Assembly (NCBI RefSeq): GCF_027913035.1
Contig: NZ_CP115775.1
Location: 1,178,001 to 1,242,000, forward strand
DNA: 64,000 nt
Origin: Paracoccus albus
Lineage (GTDB): Bacteria; Pseudomonadota; Alphaproteobacteria; Rhodobacterales; Rhodobacteraceae
Direction: 5' to 3'
Position 1 is the first letter of the stretch, and the number at the start of each line of letters is the position of its first letter. Under the pieces are notes generated by a model that ran no database searches, was not told the origin of the DNA, and saw only the letters and a program-made list of their open reading frames with translations. Positions 13,615 to 64,000 of this stretch are shown one piece after another. Made by a program: the position numbers and the translations under genes.

Positions 13615-15060
13615 ATGGAGATGCCAGCACCTGATACGGCGGTCATCGCCCGCCGCGATGCGGTTGCGGCGCGGTTGCGTCAGGCGCTTGGAGATCCAGC
13701 GGCCGTCATCACCGATCCGGTTGAGACGCGGGCCTATGAATGTGATGCGCTGTCGGCCTATCGCTGTCCTCCGCTTATGGTGGTTCTGCCCTCGACCACT
13801 GAAGAGGTGTCTGCCGTTCTGAGAATATGCAGTGAAGAGGGTGTGCCGGTCGTGCCGCGCGGCGCAGGGACAAGCCTTGCCGGCGGCTCTATGCCCACGG
13901 CGGATGCGGTGATTGTCGGGCTGGCGCGGATGAACAAGGTGCTGGAAATCAGCACTGATGACCGGCTGGTCCGGGTGCAGACAGGGCGCACCAATCTGTC
14001 GGTTACCGATGCGGTTGCCGGGCACGGTTTCTTTTACGCCCCCGATCCCTCCAGCCAGCTGGCCTGCGCGATCGGCGGCAATATCGCGATGAACTCCGGC
14101 GGGGCGCATTGCCTGAAATACGGGGTGACGACCAACAATCTGCTGGGCGCAACCGTCGTGCTGATGGATGGCGCGGTCGTCGAACTCGGCGGGCCGATGG
14201 GTGAAGGGCAGGGCCTTGACCTGCTGGGCGTTGTCTGCGGATCAGAAGGCCAGCTTGGCATCGTCAGCGAAGCCGTGCTGCGTATCCTGCCCCAGCCCGC
14301 TGGCGCCCGCCCGGTCCTGATTGCCTTCGACAGCCCGGTGACCGCCGGTGCCTGCGTGGCGGCGATCATCCGCTCCGGCGTGCTGCCGGTTGCCATCGAG
14401 TTCATGGACCGCCCCTGCATCGCCGCGACAGAAGATTTTTGCGGTGCGGGCTACCCCGATTGCGAGGCTTTGCTGATTGTAGAGGTGGAAGGCACAGAGC
14501 CGGAAATCGACGAGCAGCTATTCCTGATCCGGCAGATTGCGCAGCGCTTCGATCCGCTGGAGTTCCGCGAATCCCGCTCGGCACAGGAATCTCAGCGGAT
14601 CTGGCTTGGACGCAAATCCGCCTTTGGCGCGATGGGGGTGATCAGCGATTATATGTGCCTTGATGGCACGATCCCGGTCAGCCAGCTTCCGCATGTGCTT
14701 GGGCGCATCGCCGAGCTTTCGCAGGAATGTGGTTTGGGCGTCGCCAACGTCTTTCATGCGGGCGACGGGAACATGCATCCGTTGATCCTCTATGACGCCA
14801 ACAAACCCGGCGATCTGGAACGGTGCGAGGCGCTTGGCGCCGATATCCTGCGCCTGTGTGTCGAGGCCGGCGGATGCCTGACCGGCGAACATGGCGTCGG
14901 GGTCGAAAAGCGCGAATTGATGTCGGCGCAATACGATCCACCCGATCTGGAGATGCAGATGGCCGTCAAGGACGTCTTCGACCCTGAATGGATGCTGAAT
15001 GCCGCAAAGGTGTTTCCTCTGGCCGTTTCAGCGCCGCGCCGGGGGCAGAATGCAGCCTGA
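13615..15060 (+). CDS. glcD: Glycolate oxidase subunit GlcD (FAD-linked)
   Basis: The 481-residue catalytic flavoprotein subunit of glycolate oxidase, oxidising glycolate to glyoxylate. The FAD_binding_4 domain is marked by PRGAGTSLAGGSMP (about residue 82), YAPDPSSQ, NSGGAHCLKYGVTTNN (about 162) and CGSEGQLGIV. The FAD-oxidase C-terminal domain has GDGNMHPLIL (about 383) and GEHGVGVEKRE (about 424). The ATG at 13615 is preceded by AGGAGCGAG. It is first of glcDEF, with glcE starting inside its 3' end, so stoichiometric translation is likely. D-lactate dehydrogenases are the closest alternative, but the DEF set favours glycolate. Confidence 0.94.
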   Translation: MEMPAPDTAVIARRDAVAARLRQALGDPAAVITDPVETRAYECDALSAYRCPPLMVVLPSTTEEVSAVLRICSEEGVPVVPRGAGTSLAGGSMPTADAVIVGLARMNKVLEISTDDRLVRVQTGRTNLSVTDAVAGHGFFYAPDPSSQLACAIGGNIAMNSGGAHCLKYGVTTNNLLGATVVLMDGAVVELGGPMGEGQGLDLLGVVCGSEGQLGIVSEAVLRILPQPAGARPVLIAFDSPVTAGACVAAIIRSGVLPVAIEFMDRPCIAATEDFCGAGYPDCEALLIVEVEGTEPEIDEQLFLIRQIAQRFDPLEFRESRSAQESQRIWLGRKSAFGAMGVISDYMCLDGTIPVSQLPHVLGRIAELSQECGLGVANVFHAGDGNMHPLILYDANKPGDLERCEALGADILRLCVEAGGCLTGEHGVGVEKRELMSAQYDPPDLEMQMAVKDVFDPEWMLNAAKVFPLAVSAPRRGQNAA

Positions 15061-16087
15061 GAATGAGGAAGAGCTTGCCGCGATCATTCGCGGATCGAAT
15101 GGCCCATTGCGCGTGACGGGCGGCGGAACCCGTCTTTATCCGGGCGAGATGGGCGGCTCGCGGCTGGATATCAGCGCCATCGCCGGCATCACCCTTTATG
15201 AGCCAGAGGCGCTGACCCTTGTTGCCCGCGCCGGAACGCCGCTTGCTGACATTCAGGCGGCACTCGCCTCTGAAAACCAGATGCTGGCCTTCGAACCCGA
15301 TCCGCGCGCGGGTTCCACAATCGGCGGCGTCGCTGCCGCCAACGCGTCCGGCCCGCGCCGCCTGTCTGCCGGGGCATGCCGCGACGCGATGCTGGGCGTG
15401 CGCTTCGTCACCGGCGCGGGTGAGGTGGTGAAGAATGGCGGCCGCGTCATGAAGAATGTGACCGGCTATGATCTGGTGAAACTGATGGCAGGCTCGCGCG
15501 GGAAACTGGGTGCGCTCACGGAAATTGCGCTGAAAACCGCGCCTGTGCCGCCCGCACGCGCCACGCTGTCGCTTAGCGGGCTGGATGACGCTCAGACCAT
15601 CGCCGCGATGACAACGGCGCTGAGCGGCCCCAGCGACGTGATTGGCGCGGGCCGCTTGCCCGATGGGCGCGTGATCCTGCGGCTGGAAGGTTTGCCCGGC
15701 TCGGTCGAGTTGCGGGCCAAAGCGCTGAAACAGATGCTGAACAGCTATGGCGACGCAGAGTTGACCGAAGGCGATACCGATTTCGCCATTTTGCGCGATT
15801 TTGCGCAGAATGTGACCGTGCCACTCTGGCGGATCGTGCTGCGTCCGTCACAAGCCGCACCACTTCTGTCCCAGCTTCCAGGTCGCCATGCGGTTGACTG
15901 GGGCGGGGCTCTGATCTGGGCCGAGGCGCCGCCCGACTGGATGCCCGTCCTTCCGCCCGGCAGCCGCGCAACCCGCGTTGTGGGCGAGGCTGCATCCCTG
16001 CCCGAACCGGATGCCGTGACCACGCGTCTGAACGCCGGGCTTCGGACGAAATTCGATCCGCGCGGCGTTTTCGGGGGTGAGGCATGA
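15050..16087 (+). CDS. glcE: Glycolate oxidase FAD-binding subunit GlcE
   Basis: A 345-residue second FAD-binding subunit of glycolate oxidase. VTGGGTRLYPG near residue 20, EPDPRAGSTIGGVAAAN near 80 and GRVMKNVTGYDLVKL near 128 are typical of GlcE. The open frame extends to 14999, but the ATG at 15050 (MQPENEEELAAII) follows a GGGGGCAG ribosome site and overlaps the glcD stop by 11 bp. The gene ends in an ATGA overlap with glcF. Product length agrees with the family (about 350). Confidence 0.93.
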   Translation: MQPENEEELAAIIRGSNGPLRVTGGGTRLYPGEMGGSRLDISAIAGITLYEPEALTLVARAGTPLADIQAALASENQMLAFEPDPRAGSTIGGVAAANASGPRRLSAGACRDAMLGVRFVTGAGEVVKNGGRVMKNVTGYDLVKLMAGSRGKLGALTEIALKTAPVPPARATLSLSGLDDAQTIAAMTTALSGPSDVIGAGRLPDGRVILRLEGLPGSVELRAKALKQMLNSYGDAELTEGDTDFAILRDFAQNVTVPLWRIVLRPSQAAPLLSQLPGRHAVDWGGALIWAEAPPDWMPVLPPGSRATRVVGEAASLPEPDAVTTRLNAGLRTKFDPRGVFGGEA

Positions 16088-17370
16088 AAACCGAATTTAC
16101 AGCCGAACAGCTGACCGATCCCGGTCTGGCAGAGGCCAATAAAATCCTGCGGTCCTGCGTGCATTGTGGTTTCTGCACAGCCACTTGCCCGACATTCCTC
16201 ATCCGCGGGGATGAACTCGACAGCCCGCGTGGCCGTATCTATCTGATGAAGGATATGCTGGAATCCGGTCGCCCCGCCGATGAAAAGACCGTCACCCATA
16301 TCGACCGCTGCCTTGGCTGTCTGGCCTGCATGACGACCTGTCCCTCTGGCGTGCATTACGCGCATTTGCTGGAGGTCGGAAAGGCGCATATCGCCGCCAC
16401 ATATAAACGCCCGTGGCGAGACCGTGCGCTACGCTGGATGCTGGCGCGGGTTTTGCCGCATCAGGGTCGGTTCCGGCTGGCCATGCTGGGTGCAAAGCTG
16501 GCGCGGCCCTTCCGTCGGCTGATGCCGGATGCACGGCTGAGGGCGATGCTGGATATGGCCCCGCCCTCTCTGCCGCCGCGCAGCAAGAATGACGATGCGC
16601 AAACTTTCGCGCCGGTGACGGAAAAGCGCGCCCGCGTGGCCCTGATGATCGGCTGTGCGCAACAGGCGCTGAACACAGATATCAATGAAGCGACCATCCG
16701 CCTTCTGCGCCGCGCCGGATGCGAGGTCGTGATCCCGAAGGATTTCGGCTGCTGCGGTGCGATGACCCTGCATATGGGGCGTGAAGATGATGGCCGTGGC
16801 TCGGCCCGCGCCGCGATTGCTTCGCTGATCGCGGCTGATCGGGATGGCTCTCTGGATGCGGTGATCATCAATACATCGGGCTGCGGAACGACGATCAAGG
16901 ATTACGGGCATCTTTTCGCGGGCGATGACATCGAAGCTGACGCCAACCGAATTGCCGCGCTTGCAAAGGATGTGACCGAATTCCTTGCAGCCCACGGGCT
17001 GCCGGAAACGATCCCGCAACCGGCGCGTGTGGCCTATCACTCTGCCTGCTCGCTTCAGCATGGCCAGCAGATCAAGGCCGCGCCGCAAAGCCTTCTGCGC
17101 AGCGCAGGATTTGAGGTGGTGGAGCCGGAAAATCCGCATCTCTGTTGTGGCTCTGCCGGCACCTACAATATGCTGCAGCCCGAACTTTCGGCGGAGTTGA
17201 AGCGCCGCAAGCTTGCCACGCTGGACGCCACCGCGCCGCAGATCATCGCGGCGGGCAATATCGGCTGCATGGTCCAGATCGGCTCCGGCACCGATACGCC
17301 CGTTGTTCATACGGTCGAGTTGCTTGACTGGGCCACCGGCGGGCCGAAACCGGCAGCACTGGGCGCTTGA
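16084..17370 (+). CDS. glcF: Glycolate oxidase iron-sulfur subunit GlcF
   Basis: A 428-residue iron-sulfur subunit passing electrons from the GlcDE flavins toward quinone at the membrane. Two 4Fe-4S motifs lie in the N-terminal third: CVHCGFCTATCP (about residue 23) and CLGCLACMTTCP (about 77). Two CCG domains follow, with FGCCGAMTLHMGR (about 220) and LCCGSAGTYNML (about 355). It begins by ATGA overlap with glcE and closes the operon. About 300 bp of non-coding DNA follow before hsp20. Confidence 0.95.
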   Translation: MKTEFTAEQLTDPGLAEANKILRSCVHCGFCTATCPTFLIRGDELDSPRGRIYLMKDMLESGRPADEKTVTHIDRCLGCLACMTTCPSGVHYAHLLEVGKAHIAATYKRPWRDRALRWMLARVLPHQGRFRLAMLGAKLARPFRRLMPDARLRAMLDMAPPSLPPRSKNDDAQTFAPVTEKRARVALMIGCAQQALNTDINEATIRLLRRAGCEVVIPKDFGCCGAMTLHMGREDDGRGSARAAIASLIAADRDGSLDAVIINTSGCGTTIKDYGHLFAGDDIEADANRIAALAKDVTEFLAAHGLPETIPQPARVAYHSACSLQHGQQIKAAPQSLLRSAGFEVVEPENPHLCCGSAGTYNMLQPELSAELKRRKLATLDATAPQIIAAGNIGCMVQIGSGTDTPVVHTVELLDWATGGPKPAALGA

Positions 17371-17412
17371 TCCCCGTCGCCGGTCGGCGCATGCCCATCC
17401 GCCGTGCGGTGT

Positions 17413-17473
17413 ATATACGGATTATATACGCGATATAGACAGCATATTTACGCTTTATCTACGGCATATTCCG
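17413..17473. repeat. Helically phased ATATACG-like repeat track
   Basis: Six related AT-rich words begin at 17413 (ATATACG), 17424 (ATATACG), 17433 (ATATAGA), 17444 (ATATTTACG), 17457 (ATCTACG) and 17466 (ATATTCCG). The spacings are 11, 9, 11, 13 and 9 bp, about one DNA turn each. Such phasing can mark intrinsically bent DNA or cooperative protein binding. It stands out strongly from the GC-rich surroundings. Function unknown. Confidence 0.5.
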
Positions 17474-17566
17474 CAGCAATCGCCTCCCACGGTGGTAAGC
17501 TGAACGCAGAGCAGCATCGCCCACATCTCAGGCGACAGCCATAAGTAAATCACAATGCGCCCGTAA

Positions 17567-17596
17567 CCCTTGAAACCGTCCCGATCCATCCCAGAT
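17567..17596 (+). promoter_or_regulatory. Candidate RpoH (sigma-32) promoter of hsp20
   Basis: CCCTTGAAA at 17567-17575 matches the heat-shock -35 element. It is followed after 14 bp by CCCAGAT at 17590-17596, close to the CCCATnT -10 element. Transcription from here would give a leader of about 85 nt before the hsp20 start. Position and motif agree with a small heat shock gene. Confidence 0.6.
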
Positions 17597-17603
17597 TCAG
17601 GTC

Positions 17604-17690
17604 ACGGGACGCCACAACGGGTCCTGCTTCACGCCGCCCGGTCATCCGGGGGCATTACATAGACATCGCTTCGAAAGGATGTACGACATG
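17604..17690 (+). promoter_or_regulatory. ROSE-like RNA thermometer in the hsp20 leader
   Basis: Three hairpins can be drawn. The first pairs CGGGAC (17605-17610) with GTCCTG (17621-17626). The second pairs CCCGG (17637-17641) with CCGGG (17646-17650). The last pairs ACATC (17663-17667) with GATGT (17678-17682) and CTT (17669-17671) with AAG (17675-17677), leaving G17668 bulged. In the last hairpin U66-C67-G68-C69-U70 faces the Shine-Dalgarno A76-G77-G78-A79. This is the UYGCU/AGGA arrangement with an unpaired G that defines ROSE elements of proteobacterial hsp20 genes. The start codon at 17688 follows directly. Heat would melt the stem and free the ribosome site. The folding is by eye only. 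Confidence 0.75.
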
Positions 17691-18146
17691 CGTAACTTTG
17701 ATCGCGCACCGCTCTACCGTGCTTCGGTCGGCTTCGACCGTATGGCCGACCTGATGGACCGCGCCCTGTCCGCTGACAGCGCCACCCAGTCCTATCCCCC
17801 CTACAATATCGAAAAGACCGGCGACGATACCTACCGTATCTCTATCGCCGTGGCGGGCTTCGCCGCTGACGACCTGAATGTCGAGTTGCGCGACGGCTCT
17901 GTCATCGTCTCGGCCAAGAAGGCTGAAGAGGATGATTCGCGCACCTTCCTGCATCGCGGCATCGCCACCCGCGCCTTTGAGCGTCGGTTTACCTTGGCCG
18001 AACATATCCGCGTTGAAGGTGCATCGCATCAGGATGGTATGCTGCATATAGAGCTGATCCGCGAAGTGCCCGAGGCCCTGAAACCCCGCCGGATCGCGAT
18101 TGATCGGGTGGAAGACAGCAAGCGCGTCGAGAAACTGGATTCGTAA
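17688..18146 (+). CDS. Hsp20 family small heat shock protein (IbpA-like)
   Basis: A 152-residue small heat shock protein that holds unfolding proteins for refolding by DnaK/ClpB. It begins MRNFDRAPLYRASVGFDRM, like IbpA. An ATG at 17679 is in frame, but it lies inside the Shine-Dalgarno AAAGGA, so 17688 is preferred. The alpha-crystallin domain runs from about residue 35 (YPPYNIEKTGDDTYRISIAVAG) to 125 and includes FLHRGIATRAFERRFTLAE and a closing G-M-L-H-I-E-L strand. It is preceded by a heat-shock-type promoter and a thermometer-like leader, and followed by a strong terminator, so it is probably monocistronic. Confidence 0.95.
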   Translation: MRNFDRAPLYRASVGFDRMADLMDRALSADSATQSYPPYNIEKTGDDTYRISIAVAGFAADDLNVELRDGSVIVSAKKAEEDDSRTFLHRGIATRAFERRFTLAEHIRVEGASHQDGMLHIELIREVPEALKPRRIAIDRVEDSKRVEKLDS

Positions 18147-18167
18147 TCCTGTCGTCACGACAGAACG

Positions 18168-18197
18168 AAGGCGCGGGAAGATCCCGCGCCTTTTTTT
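18168..18197 (+). terminator. Rho-independent terminator of hsp20
   Basis: A 9-bp perfect stem GGCGCGGGA (18170-18178) / TCCCGCGCC (18182-18190) with loop AGA is followed by seven T residues (18191-18197). It lies 22 bp after the hsp20 stop. Confidence 0.95.
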
Positions 18198-21747: not shown

Positions 21748-23102
21748 GAAAGTTGGTGATGGCCCCTGAGGGGCGGCATATCATGGCGGTGTTCAAGACG
21801 CCGTCAATTCTCGTAGAGAAAGGGATATGCCACATGAGAGAAGATACCATCACCGGCTTGCCTGATCCATCCGGATTTTCCGCCGATCCGCTCACCGACC
21901 TGATCCGGTCTGGAGCGCGGCAATTGATCGAACAGGCGCTTGAGGCTGAGCTTGGCGCGTTGCTTGCGCAGTTTGCCGATGACAGGACACCGATGGGGCA
22001 TGCTCGGGTCGTCCGACATGGCCACTTGCCAGAGCGCGAGGTCATGACCGGCGTCGGCCCTGTGGCCGTGAAAGTGCCGCGCGTTCGGGACCGCGGTGAG
22101 CAGGCTGAGAAGGTGCGCTTCACCTCGTCGATCCTGCCGCCGTATCTACGCAAGGCCAAATCCGTCGAGGAATTGCTGCCCTGGCTCTATTTGAAGGGCA
22201 TTTCCACGGGTGATTTCCAGGAAGCCCTGGCCGCGCTGCTTGGCCCGACTGCGGCTGGCCTGTCATCCACCACGATTTCGCGCCTCAAAGCCGACTGGTG
22301 GGAGGATTATGCACGTTGGCAGAAACGCGACCTCAGTGCCCGGCGCATCGTCTATGTCTGGGCGGACGGCGTGTATTTCCAGCCACGAATGGAAGAGAAA
22401 CAATGCGTCCTGGTTCTCATTGGCGCGGATGAATGGGGTCGAAAGGAAATTCTGGGCCTGACGGACGGCTTATCGGGAAAGCACCCAGAGCTGGCGTGAG
22501 CTGCTCCTCGATCTCAAGCGACGCGGCCTTTCTCACGCACCCGATCTGGCCGTTGGCGACGGCGCACTCGGGTTCTGGGCAGCCCTGCGCGAGGTGTTTG
22601 GAGACCCCTGTGAACAGCGCTGCTGGTTCCACAAAACCGGAAATGTCCTGAATGCGATGCCCAAGTCGGTCCAGGCCAAAGCCAAGGGCCATCTGCATGA
22701 TATCTGGCAGGCGGAGACGAAGGCCGAGGCCAACGCTGCCTTCGACTTCTTCGTCGAAACCTACGGTGTGAAATACGAAAAGGCGGTGGCCAAGCTGGTC
22801 AAGGACCGCGAGGGGCTACTTGCTTTCTATGACTTCCCTGCGGAACACTGGAAACATATCAGGACAACCAACCCCATCGAAAGCACCTTCGCCACCGTCC
22901 GTCACCGAACCGGCAAAACCAAGGGCTGCTTGAGCCGCAAAACCGGGCTGGCAATGGCGTTCAAACTGATGATGTCAGCGCAGGGCAAATGGCGAAAACT
23001 CGACGGATCAAACCGCATGCCTGAGATCATTCAGGGCATTGCATTCATCGACGGCATCAAGCAACTTCAACCGGCCGCCTGATAACGCCGTCACCAACTT
23101 TC
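21748..23102 (+). mobile_element. IS256-family insertion sequence
   Basis: A 1355-bp element bounded by 16-bp terminal inverted repeats with one mismatch: GAAAGTTGGTGATGGC at 21748-21763 and its inverted form GCCGTCACCAACTTTC at 23087-23102. It contains a single transposase reading frame of the Mutator/IS256 type, now frameshifted. No perfect 8-9 bp direct repeat is seen at the ends; the flanks share only ATAGCT (21742-21747 and 23107-23112). The target lies between the NifU-like gene and sequence that may once have been coding on the minus strand. Confidence 0.88.
21834..23082 (+). pseudogene. IS256-family transposase with one frameshift
   Basis: The first frame runs from ATG 21834 (MREDTITGLPDPSG; an upstream ATG at 21783 is possible) to a TGA at 22497-22499. 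The second frame carries the rest to 23082. An extra T at 22470/22471 (GGCTTATCGG where GGC TAT CGG is expected) explains the shift, after KEILGLTDG. Removing it gives one protein of about 415 residues, normal for the family. The catalytic acids are all present: D in YVWADGVYF, D in LAVGDGALGFW and E in NPIESTFATVRHRT. The copy is therefore recently broken, or the base is a sequencing error. Confidence 0.9.
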
Positions 23103-61953: not shown

Positions 61954-64000
61954 ATGCCAAGCCTTAACGATATTCGCTCGACCTATCTCGATTTCTTCAA
62001 GCGCAACGGTCACGAGGTGGTTGCGTCCTCGCCGCTTGTGCCGCGCAATGACCCGACGCTTATGTTTGCCAATTCCGGTATGGTGCAGTTCAAGAACCTG
62101 TTCACCGGCGTTGAAAAGCGCGACTATGTGCGGGCGACATCTTCGCAGAAATGCGTGCGGGCAGGGGGCAAGCATAACGACCTGGACAATGTCGGCTATA
62201 CCGCGCGGCACCACACCTTCTTTGAAATGCTGGGAAATTTCAGCTTTGGCGATTATTTCAAGTCCGAAGCAATCCCCTTTGCCTGGGAATTGCTGACCAA
62301 GGATTTCGGCATCCCGAAGGACAAGCTGCTGGTCACGGTTTACCATACCGATGATGAGGCGGCGGACCTGTGGAAGAAGGTCGCGGGCCTGACCGATGAC
62401 CGCATTATCCGCATCCCGACCGATGATAACTTCTGGCGCATGGGTCCGACCGGCCCCTGCGGCCCCTGTACCGAGATTTTCTACGATCACGGCGATCACA
62501 TCTGGGGCGGCCCGCCCGGCTCGGCCGAGGAGGACGGTGATCGCTTTATCGAGATCTGGAACCTCGTCTTCATGCAGTTCGAGCAGTTCGAGGACGGCAC
62601 GATGCGCGACCTGGAGGCGCAGTCAATCGACACCGGCATGGGGCTGGAACGGGTCGGTGCGCTGCTGCAGGGCAAGCATGACAATTACGACACCGACCTG
62701 ATGCGCGCGCTGATCGAGGCTTCGGCCCATGCGACGAGTTCCGATCCCGACGGGCCGGGCAAGGTCCATCACCGGGTGATCGCGGATCACCTGCGCTCGA
62801 CCTCGTTCCTGCTGGCCGATGGGGTGATGCCGTCGAACGAAGGGCGCGGATATGTGCTGCGCCGGATCATGCGCCGGGCAATGCGCCATGTGCATATGCT
62901 TGGCGCGCAGGACCCGGTGATGCATAAGCTGGTGCCGGCTTTGGTGCGCCAGATGGGGGCAGCATATCCGGAACTGTCCCGTGCGCAGTCGATGATCGAG
63001 GAATCGCTGCTGTCAGAGGAAACCCGCTTCCGCAAGACGCTGGATCGTGGGCTGCGTCTGCTGGATGACGAATTGGCCAAGCTGCCCGACGGCGCTGATC
63101 TGCCGGGCGACGCGGCGTTCAAGCTGTACGACACATATGGTTTCCCGCTGGATCTGACACAGGACGCGCTGCGCGAACAGGGGCGCAACGTCGATACGGC
63201 GGGTTTCGATTCCGCGATGGCAGAGCAGAAGGCGCAGGCGCGCGCTGCCTGGGCTGGCAGCGGCGAAACCAAGGATGCCGCGATATGGTTCGAACTGGGC
63301 GAAAAGCACGGCGCGACGGAGTTCCTGGGCTATGACACCGAAGAGGCGGAAGGCCAGCTGCTCGCACTCGTCTCTGACGGGGCAGAGGTTGAAACGGCGA
63401 AGGAAGGCGAGGCGGTGCAGATCGTCGTCAACCAGACGCCGTTCTACGCCGAATCGGGCGGTCAGGTCGGCGATACCGGCACCATTCAGACCGATACCGG
63501 CATGGCGCGGATTTCGGACACGAAAAAATCTGGCGGCGTGTTTATCCATATCGGCGAGGTCACGATGGGCCAGATCAGCCGCGGGCAGGCCGCGAAGCTG
63601 GAGGTCGCGCATGACCGCCGTGGCATGATCCGCGCCAATCACTCGGCCACGCATCTGTTGCATGAGGCGCTGCGTCGAGCGCTTGGCGATCACGTCGCGC
63701 AGCGCGGGTCTTTGAATGCACATGACCGGCTGCGCTTCGATTTCAGCCACAACCATGCTCTCACGCCCGACGAAATCGCGCAGGTCGAGACAGAGGTGAA
63801 CGAATATATCCGCCAGAACGCGCCGGTCGAAACACGGATCATGACGCCCGACGATGCGCGGGGGATCGGGGCGCAGGCACTGTTCGGTGAAAAGTATGGT
63901 GAGGAAGTCCGCGTCGTTTCCATGGGCAAGCTGGCCGATTCCGGAAAGGGCACCGACAAGGAAACCTATTCGCTTGAACTTTGCGGGGGCACCCATGTTG
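61954..64000 (+). CDS. alaS: Alanine-tRNA ligase, N-terminal part
   Basis: About 682 residues of AlaRS before the window ends. The class II core has [44 protein letters not shown] and [20 protein letters not shown]. The editing domain has [13 protein letters not shown], the zinc-binding [11 protein letters not shown] (near residue 560) and ends in LCGGTHV. The ATG at 61954 has a CGAGGGAGC ribosome site. A 279-bp spacer with the copy C element precedes it. The C-terminal oligomerisation domain is beyond the window. Confidence 0.97.

Follow-up and report, generated by a model that had tools for sequence, protein, structure and literature searches.

A predicted ROSE-type RNA thermometer in the hsp20 leader of Paracoccus albus, with a bulged G recurring in its upstream hairpins

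The window, a stretch of 64,000 nucleotides from Paracoccus albus (contig NZ_CP115775.1, positions 1,178,001 to 1,242,000; host genome 3.76 Mb), carries on its forward strand a gene for a 152-residue small heat shock protein of the hsp20/IbpA type at 17688..18146 (Pfam HSP20, E 2.6e-19). Against the NCBIfam IbpA model the protein scores 152 bits, under the cut-off of 212. The gene is followed on the same strand by an intrinsic-terminator-like stem of 12 pairs with a T run (18167..18197), one such stem being found 3′ of hsp20 as compared with a mean of 0.6 in shuffles. On the 5′ side, glcD-, glcE- and glcF-like genes stand in a row at 13615-17370; GlcF alone passes its NCBIfam cut-off, and GlcD and GlcE score under theirs. 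Elsewhere in the window, a 248-residue Mutator-family transposase frame (21753-22499) is probably partial, because its match spans only positions 23-201 of a 379-position profile. An in-frame ATG at 17679-17681 overlaps the Shine-Dalgarno sequence of hsp20 (AGGATG). Met-Arg is found at the 17688 start in 137 of 139 orthologue matches, those of L023 and L112 beginning later, and this conservation favours 17688 over the ATG at 17679 as the start of the gene. The Shine-Dalgarno AGGA (17676..17679, forward strand) lies 8 nt 5′ of the ATG at 17688.

RpoH promoters combine a CTTG −35 element with a C-rich −10 element at a spacing of 17-18 nt. An RpoH-like arrangement is present on the forward strand at 17569..17596, just 5′ of the leader hairpins described below, and consists of CTTG (17569-17572), a 17-nt spacer and CCCAGAT (17590-17596). 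This heat-shock-type promoter, proposed in an earlier note made from the sequence alone, is conserved in relatives: of 116 leaders, redundant ones included, 112 have a CYYANMT-type 7-mer a short way 5′ of hairpin I and, 17 or 18 nt ahead of it, CTTG. When scored against the consensus, 110 of the 116 leaders had at least five of six promoter positions, compared with 5 of 580 shuffled stretches. These data suggest that hsp20 would be transcribed by RpoH at heat shock.

The promoter is followed by a leader of about 85 nt, for which folding predicts three hairpins ahead of hsp20. This number falls within the two to four of ROSE elements, and such elements are expected in just this position, the 5′ leader of a gene for a small heat shock protein. 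The complete element spans 17605..17690, where it is matched at 33.2 bits by our covariance model R1 (see below); this element and its hairpins are on the forward strand. Hairpin I (17605..17626) has an outer stem of 6 bp, a bulged G at 17611 and an inner stem of 2 bp, and hairpin II (17633..17653) has an outer stem of 3 bp, a bulged G at 17636 and an inner stem of 5 bp. Both are supported by folding and covariation, the latter coming from 26 leaders in the case of hairpin II, and both are conserved in relatives, in agreement with the earlier prediction of two hairpins upstream of the sensor. Hairpin III (17663..17682), the predicted thermosensor, is supported by folding, conservation and pair counts, and sets UCGCU (17666-17670) opposite AGGA. 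With 17600 added to each number, the pairs of its minimum-energy fold are A63-U82, C64-G81, A65-U80, U66-A79, C67-G78, C69-G77, U70-A76 and U71-A75, with G68 (17668) bulged between C67-G78 and C69-G77. The earlier note had placed this hairpin correctly in the sequence, and the UYGCU/AGGA pairing with unpaired G68 that it claimed is reproduced by the fold and common to relatives.

Orthologues were gathered from 61 relatives, 295 genomes of the family and GTDB contigs, and the best-scoring loci, 139 in all, were fetched; their leaders comprise 124 distinct sequences over 100 nt. The pattern TYGCT-N2-20-AGGA occurs no more than 45 nt from the start in 138 of these 139 leaders, the sole exception, L018, having AGGG. 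A non-redundant set of 110 Rhodobacteraceae leaders was prepared by dropping leaders more than about 84% alike, the late-starting L023 and L112, and leaders shorter than 90 nt; UCGCU is invariant in all 110. The UYGCU strand is thus kept in the aligned Rhodobacteraceae hsp20 leaders, and its loss from related species, which the earlier note had named as contrary evidence, was not seen. As an isolated segment, hairpin III folds into the bulged UC-G-CU helix in each of the 110 leaders. In whole-leader minimum-energy folds, hairpin III with the UCGCU/AGGA pairing forms in 83 of 110 and another fold wins in 27, a result that we count against the ROSE reading. The host genome also has a second hsp20 (L178; G000:C1:2293676-2294776), about 40% identical, with a leader match at 504-567; that leader sets UCGCU against AGGG and has an upstream bulged-G hairpin, with one hairpin fewer.

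Taken alone, the folding energy of the leader is unremarkable (z −1.65, with 11 of 200 shuffles equally good), and the case for the element therefore rests on conservation and covariation. The bare motif TYGCT-N2-12-AGGA-N4-12-ATG is found 78 times in the genome, as compared with 22 times for the pattern read backwards; set against some 126,000 ATGs, a number extrapolated from the window, this amounts to about 6 in 10,000 per ATG. The modest z and the 78 motif copies speak for chance pairing in GC-rich sequence. For helix I and hairpin III we rely on covariation in A1, a structure-blind alignment of the 110 leaders. RNAalifold on A1 recovers the hairpin I outer stem and the bulged hairpin III; hairpin II is absent from this result, and MAFFT alignments place it out of register. 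The A1 pair counts for helix I and hairpin III gave 149 double-changed cells against 65.1 in shuffles, none of 500 shuffles reaching as high, and 92.1% of cells were paired, as compared with 42-55% when partners were slid. A structure-arranged set, using N padding, was reduced from 110 leaders to 89 that could be parsed, 31 with fitting lengths and finally 26 diverse leaders. Changes on both sides occurred in 14 of its 22 pairs (6 in hairpin I, 6 in hairpin II and 2 in hairpin III), counts that lean towards structure, the set being arranged by structure. The pairs that flank UCGCU and close the loop covary, while UCGCU itself is invariant.

The 26 structure-arranged leaders were used to build R1. 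In the window R1 finds a single site, 17605-17690 (E 5.6e-6), with no others at E up to 10, and in the genome the leader is the best match (E 3.3e-4) and the sole one below E 1; these E-values are not fully independent, because L061, which was used for training, is close to the window leader. The next three genomic matches (E 2 to 10) have no hsp20 homologue by tblastn. A further full-stem UYGCU/AGGA site lies at 62290 of the window, with no R1 match there. Across the class, R1 at E up to 0.01 gave 43 matches in 40 of 240 genomes, and hsp20 begins where the match ends, or within a few bases of that point, at all 29 of the loci L149-L177, which account for 29 of the 43 matches and of which L149 and L158 belong to the Rhodobacteraceae. 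In a scan of the phylum, 18 of 299 genomes matched, and the newly fetched loci lie directly before hsp20 in 15 of 15 cases. Both scans used stricter filters, under which weak matches are lost, and in the phylum scan R1 matched nothing in two or more Rhodobacteraceae genomes, G730 and G229 among them. Independently of R1, hsp20 loci of other families were picked by protein; UYGCU precedes AGGA, GGAG or AGGG in 13 of these 14, L188 being the one without the motif. Given the conservation, the covariation and the R1 matches (E up to 0.01) before hsp20 at every fetched locus examined, these comparative data refute chance pairing, to which we assign next to no probability.

The earlier note had also named a significant score with the Rfam ROSE models as support, and the lack of one as evidence against the element. 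On this point the result was negative: a search of the window and of 17400-17900 returned no ROSE match even at E up to 10, and the window leader does not reach the Rfam ROSE gathering threshold, which is a threshold of the library rather than a property of the RNA. This miss turned out to be a weak test of ROSE membership, because none of 190 alphaproteobacterial genomes has an RF00435 match above the gathering score (5 have weaker matches; stricter filters were used) and because 3 of 13 orthologue loci searched, out of the 139, have sub-threshold ROSE matches at the leader. These are L131 and L056 with RF00435 (E 0.33 and 9.1, respectively) and L048 with RF02523 (E 0.057, 28.5 bits).

The predicted response of the leader to heat was evaluated by folding at several temperatures. 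In the window leader AGGA has a predicted mean unpaired probability of 0.086 at 25 °C, which increases to 0.206 when the temperature is set to 42 °C and to 0.287 at 50 °C. Between 25 and 42 °C, the two temperatures proposed in the earlier note, the predicted opening is modest, which we count against the ROSE reading. Elsewhere in the window, 17 AGGA-ATG sites have a median predicted accessibility of 0.546 at 25 °C, as compared with 0.087 in the leader. Removal of the bulged G in silico locks AGGA, with a value of 0.008 at 42 °C. Over the 110 leaders, the median predicted AGGA accessibility increases from 0.087 to 0.170 between 25 and 42 °C. Its upper quartile is 0.394 already at the lower temperature, which we likewise count against the ROSE reading. 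Because of this upper quartile, and because hairpin III appears in 83 of 110 whole-leader folds, masking and opening are not predicted to be uniform across leaders.

Over 25-50 °C the stem bases of hairpin III are predicted to go from 0.112 to 0.299 unpaired, and those of hairpins I and II have predicted means of 0.04 and <0.01 across the range. The temperature-insensitivity predicted for hairpins I and II would suit a fixed structured leader, acting in stability or ribosome standby, with heat control being solely transcriptional. The presence of an RpoH-like promoter and the preference for an alternative whole-leader fold in 27 of 110 leaders are consistent with this; however, a fixed leader leaves unexplained an invariant UCGCU amid covarying flanking and loop-closing pairs, and we consider it highly improbable. 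Together, fold, conservation and covariation support the reading of the earlier note as a whole, and the hsp20 leader is very probably a ROSE-type RNA thermometer. In such a model, RpoH would transcribe hsp20 upon heat shock, and at low temperature hairpin III would block the 30S subunit by hiding the Shine-Dalgarno sequence in a UCGCU helix weakened by its bulge. At heat-shock temperature the bulged helix would open and translation would begin, with hairpins I and II likely remaining folded.

The founding member of the ROSE element RF00435 is rhizobial hspA. The window leader resembles RF00435 in its position before a small heat shock gene, in UYGCU/AGGA with a bulged G and in the same bulged G in the model's hairpin I, whereas the middle hairpin of the RF00435 consensus is long and has no bulge, and an additional lower stem extends to the start codon. 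With the E. coli ibpA leader and ROSE_2 (RF01832) it shares a 5′-strand bulged G, seen in both upstream hairpins of the predicted ibpA fold and in the pre-sensor hairpin of the Rfam structure, which also has a UCGCU sensor. In contrast, the Rfam model omits the first hairpin, and the ibpA leader is diverged in sequence (R1 score 19.5 bits) and does not form the sensor hairpin in that predicted fold. The E. coli ibpB leader (L223:1396-1474) scores 21.3 bits with R1, above ibpA, and its fold includes a first hairpin with a bulged G. ROSE_3 (RF02523) likewise has a bulged G in hairpin I and gives the sub-threshold match on the relative L048, but in that match its second hairpin aligns with the middle hairpin of the leader and not with the sensor. 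Four consecutive U opposite the Shine-Dalgarno sequence, as in a fourU thermometer, are absent, the strand being UCGCU. The leader also departs from ROSE-G, defined by a CUGCU strand whose bulged G faces another bulged G (PMC12857270): it has UCGCU instead, and neither G of AGGA is left unpaired. The short ROSE of Pseudomonas ibpA is described as having a UYGCU sensor hairpin and an upstream hairpin that does not melt; it has two hairpins, unlike the three of the window leader (PMC3669281). The closest prior report that we found concerns ROSE-like motifs of ibpA and hspD in Nautella sp. R11, a member of the Roseobacter clade (Rhodobacteraceae); both are small heat shock genes, and the available part of the report gives recognisable motifs only, without structure, covariation or model (PMC3230580). 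With these motifs already reported, and with more than 40 ROSE candidates predicted in alpha- and gammaproteobacteria (PMC3669281), the window leader joins a known kind of element, here with a better-defined architecture.

A point absent from the earlier note is that, in predicted folds, the 5′ strand of hairpins I and II usually has one bulged G like that of the sensor. In RNAfold structures of the region 5′ of hairpin III, a lone 5′-strand G was the first interruption outward from the loop 174 times in the 110 leaders. When stems of at least two inner and at least three outer pairs were counted, two or more such hairpins were present in 66 leaders, one in 39 and none in 5. Among 550 dinucleotide-shuffled copies, 539 had no bulged-G hairpin, 11 had one and none had two. 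In hairpin I of some Paracoccus leaders a larger internal loop replaces the bulge. The Rfam ROSE structures each show the bulge once among their upstream hairpins. We found no discussion of a repeated bulged G in upstream hairpins in the literature searched, and make no claim that the feature is unreported. The function of upstream ROSE hairpins is described as not fully understood, and Pseudomonas constructs lacking hairpin I kept a heat induction of 9.8- and 8.7-fold, which argues against a need for hairpin I in that organism (PMC3669281).

One candidate partner for these hairpins is the chaperone itself. E. coli IbpA binds its own 5′ UTR through Arg93, and the aromatic residue 34 matters for self-repression; conservation in Alphaproteobacteria has been suggested (PMC10474464). 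By alignment with E. coli IbpA, the window protein keeps the counterparts of Arg93 and Tyr34, as do all 139 orthologues in a motif search, and at 42 loci outside the orthologue set Arg is kept in 41 and Tyr in 39. L156 encodes a small heat shock protein with Gln in place of Arg93, and its leader is still found by R1. Given the E. coli precedent and these conserved residues, the leader might mask the ribosome site and leave the main switching to a protein: the product of hsp20 would bind its own leader and repress translation like E. coli IbpA, temperature acting mostly through titration of that protein and through RpoH. Against this, known ROSE thermometers are marked by the bulge-weakened UYGCU helix, which does not vary here, and Arg also occupies this position in 4 of 5 non-IbpA-type proteins by pairwise alignment, so that it may be structural. 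Thermometer and protein layers can moreover coexist. We therefore judge it unlikely that a protein is the main switch.

Beside a thermometer in hairpin III, hairpins I and II could be more than spacers: each repeats the sensor geometry, with one bulged 5′-strand G a few pairs away from the loop, and the two might form a recognition platform, most likely for the IbpA-type chaperone itself. In that case the mRNA would sense heat directly by way of hairpin III, while hairpins I and II would report on free chaperone. We hold this extension to be quite doubtful, and the tie between the chaperone residues and the bulged upstream hairpins is a guess of our own, against which data from another class of the phylum speak. 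There, UYGCU (looser pattern) is present in 14 of 14 IbpA-type leaders, and bulged-G upstream hairpins number none in 7 of them, one in 5 and two in 2. The seven leaders that have none weaken the idea that IbpA-type regulation requires a bulged G in an upstream hairpin. One leader of the other class, L232, has a bulged G in all three hairpins. Among 16 more distant small heat shock protein loci of that class, the motif is in none of the 5 read, and 11 gave no tblastn match.

ROSE control of hsp20 would, judging from the leader sequences, be the rule among the Rhodobacteraceae leaders read (138 of 139), and would appear to reach other alphaproteobacterial families (13 of 14 loci) even though RF00435 misses it. 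The available part of PMC10474464 does not locate the site of self-repression on the RNA, and the upstream bulged G is a candidate for such a site in IbpA-type regulation. Its conservation also makes single-base tests of upstream-hairpin function possible.
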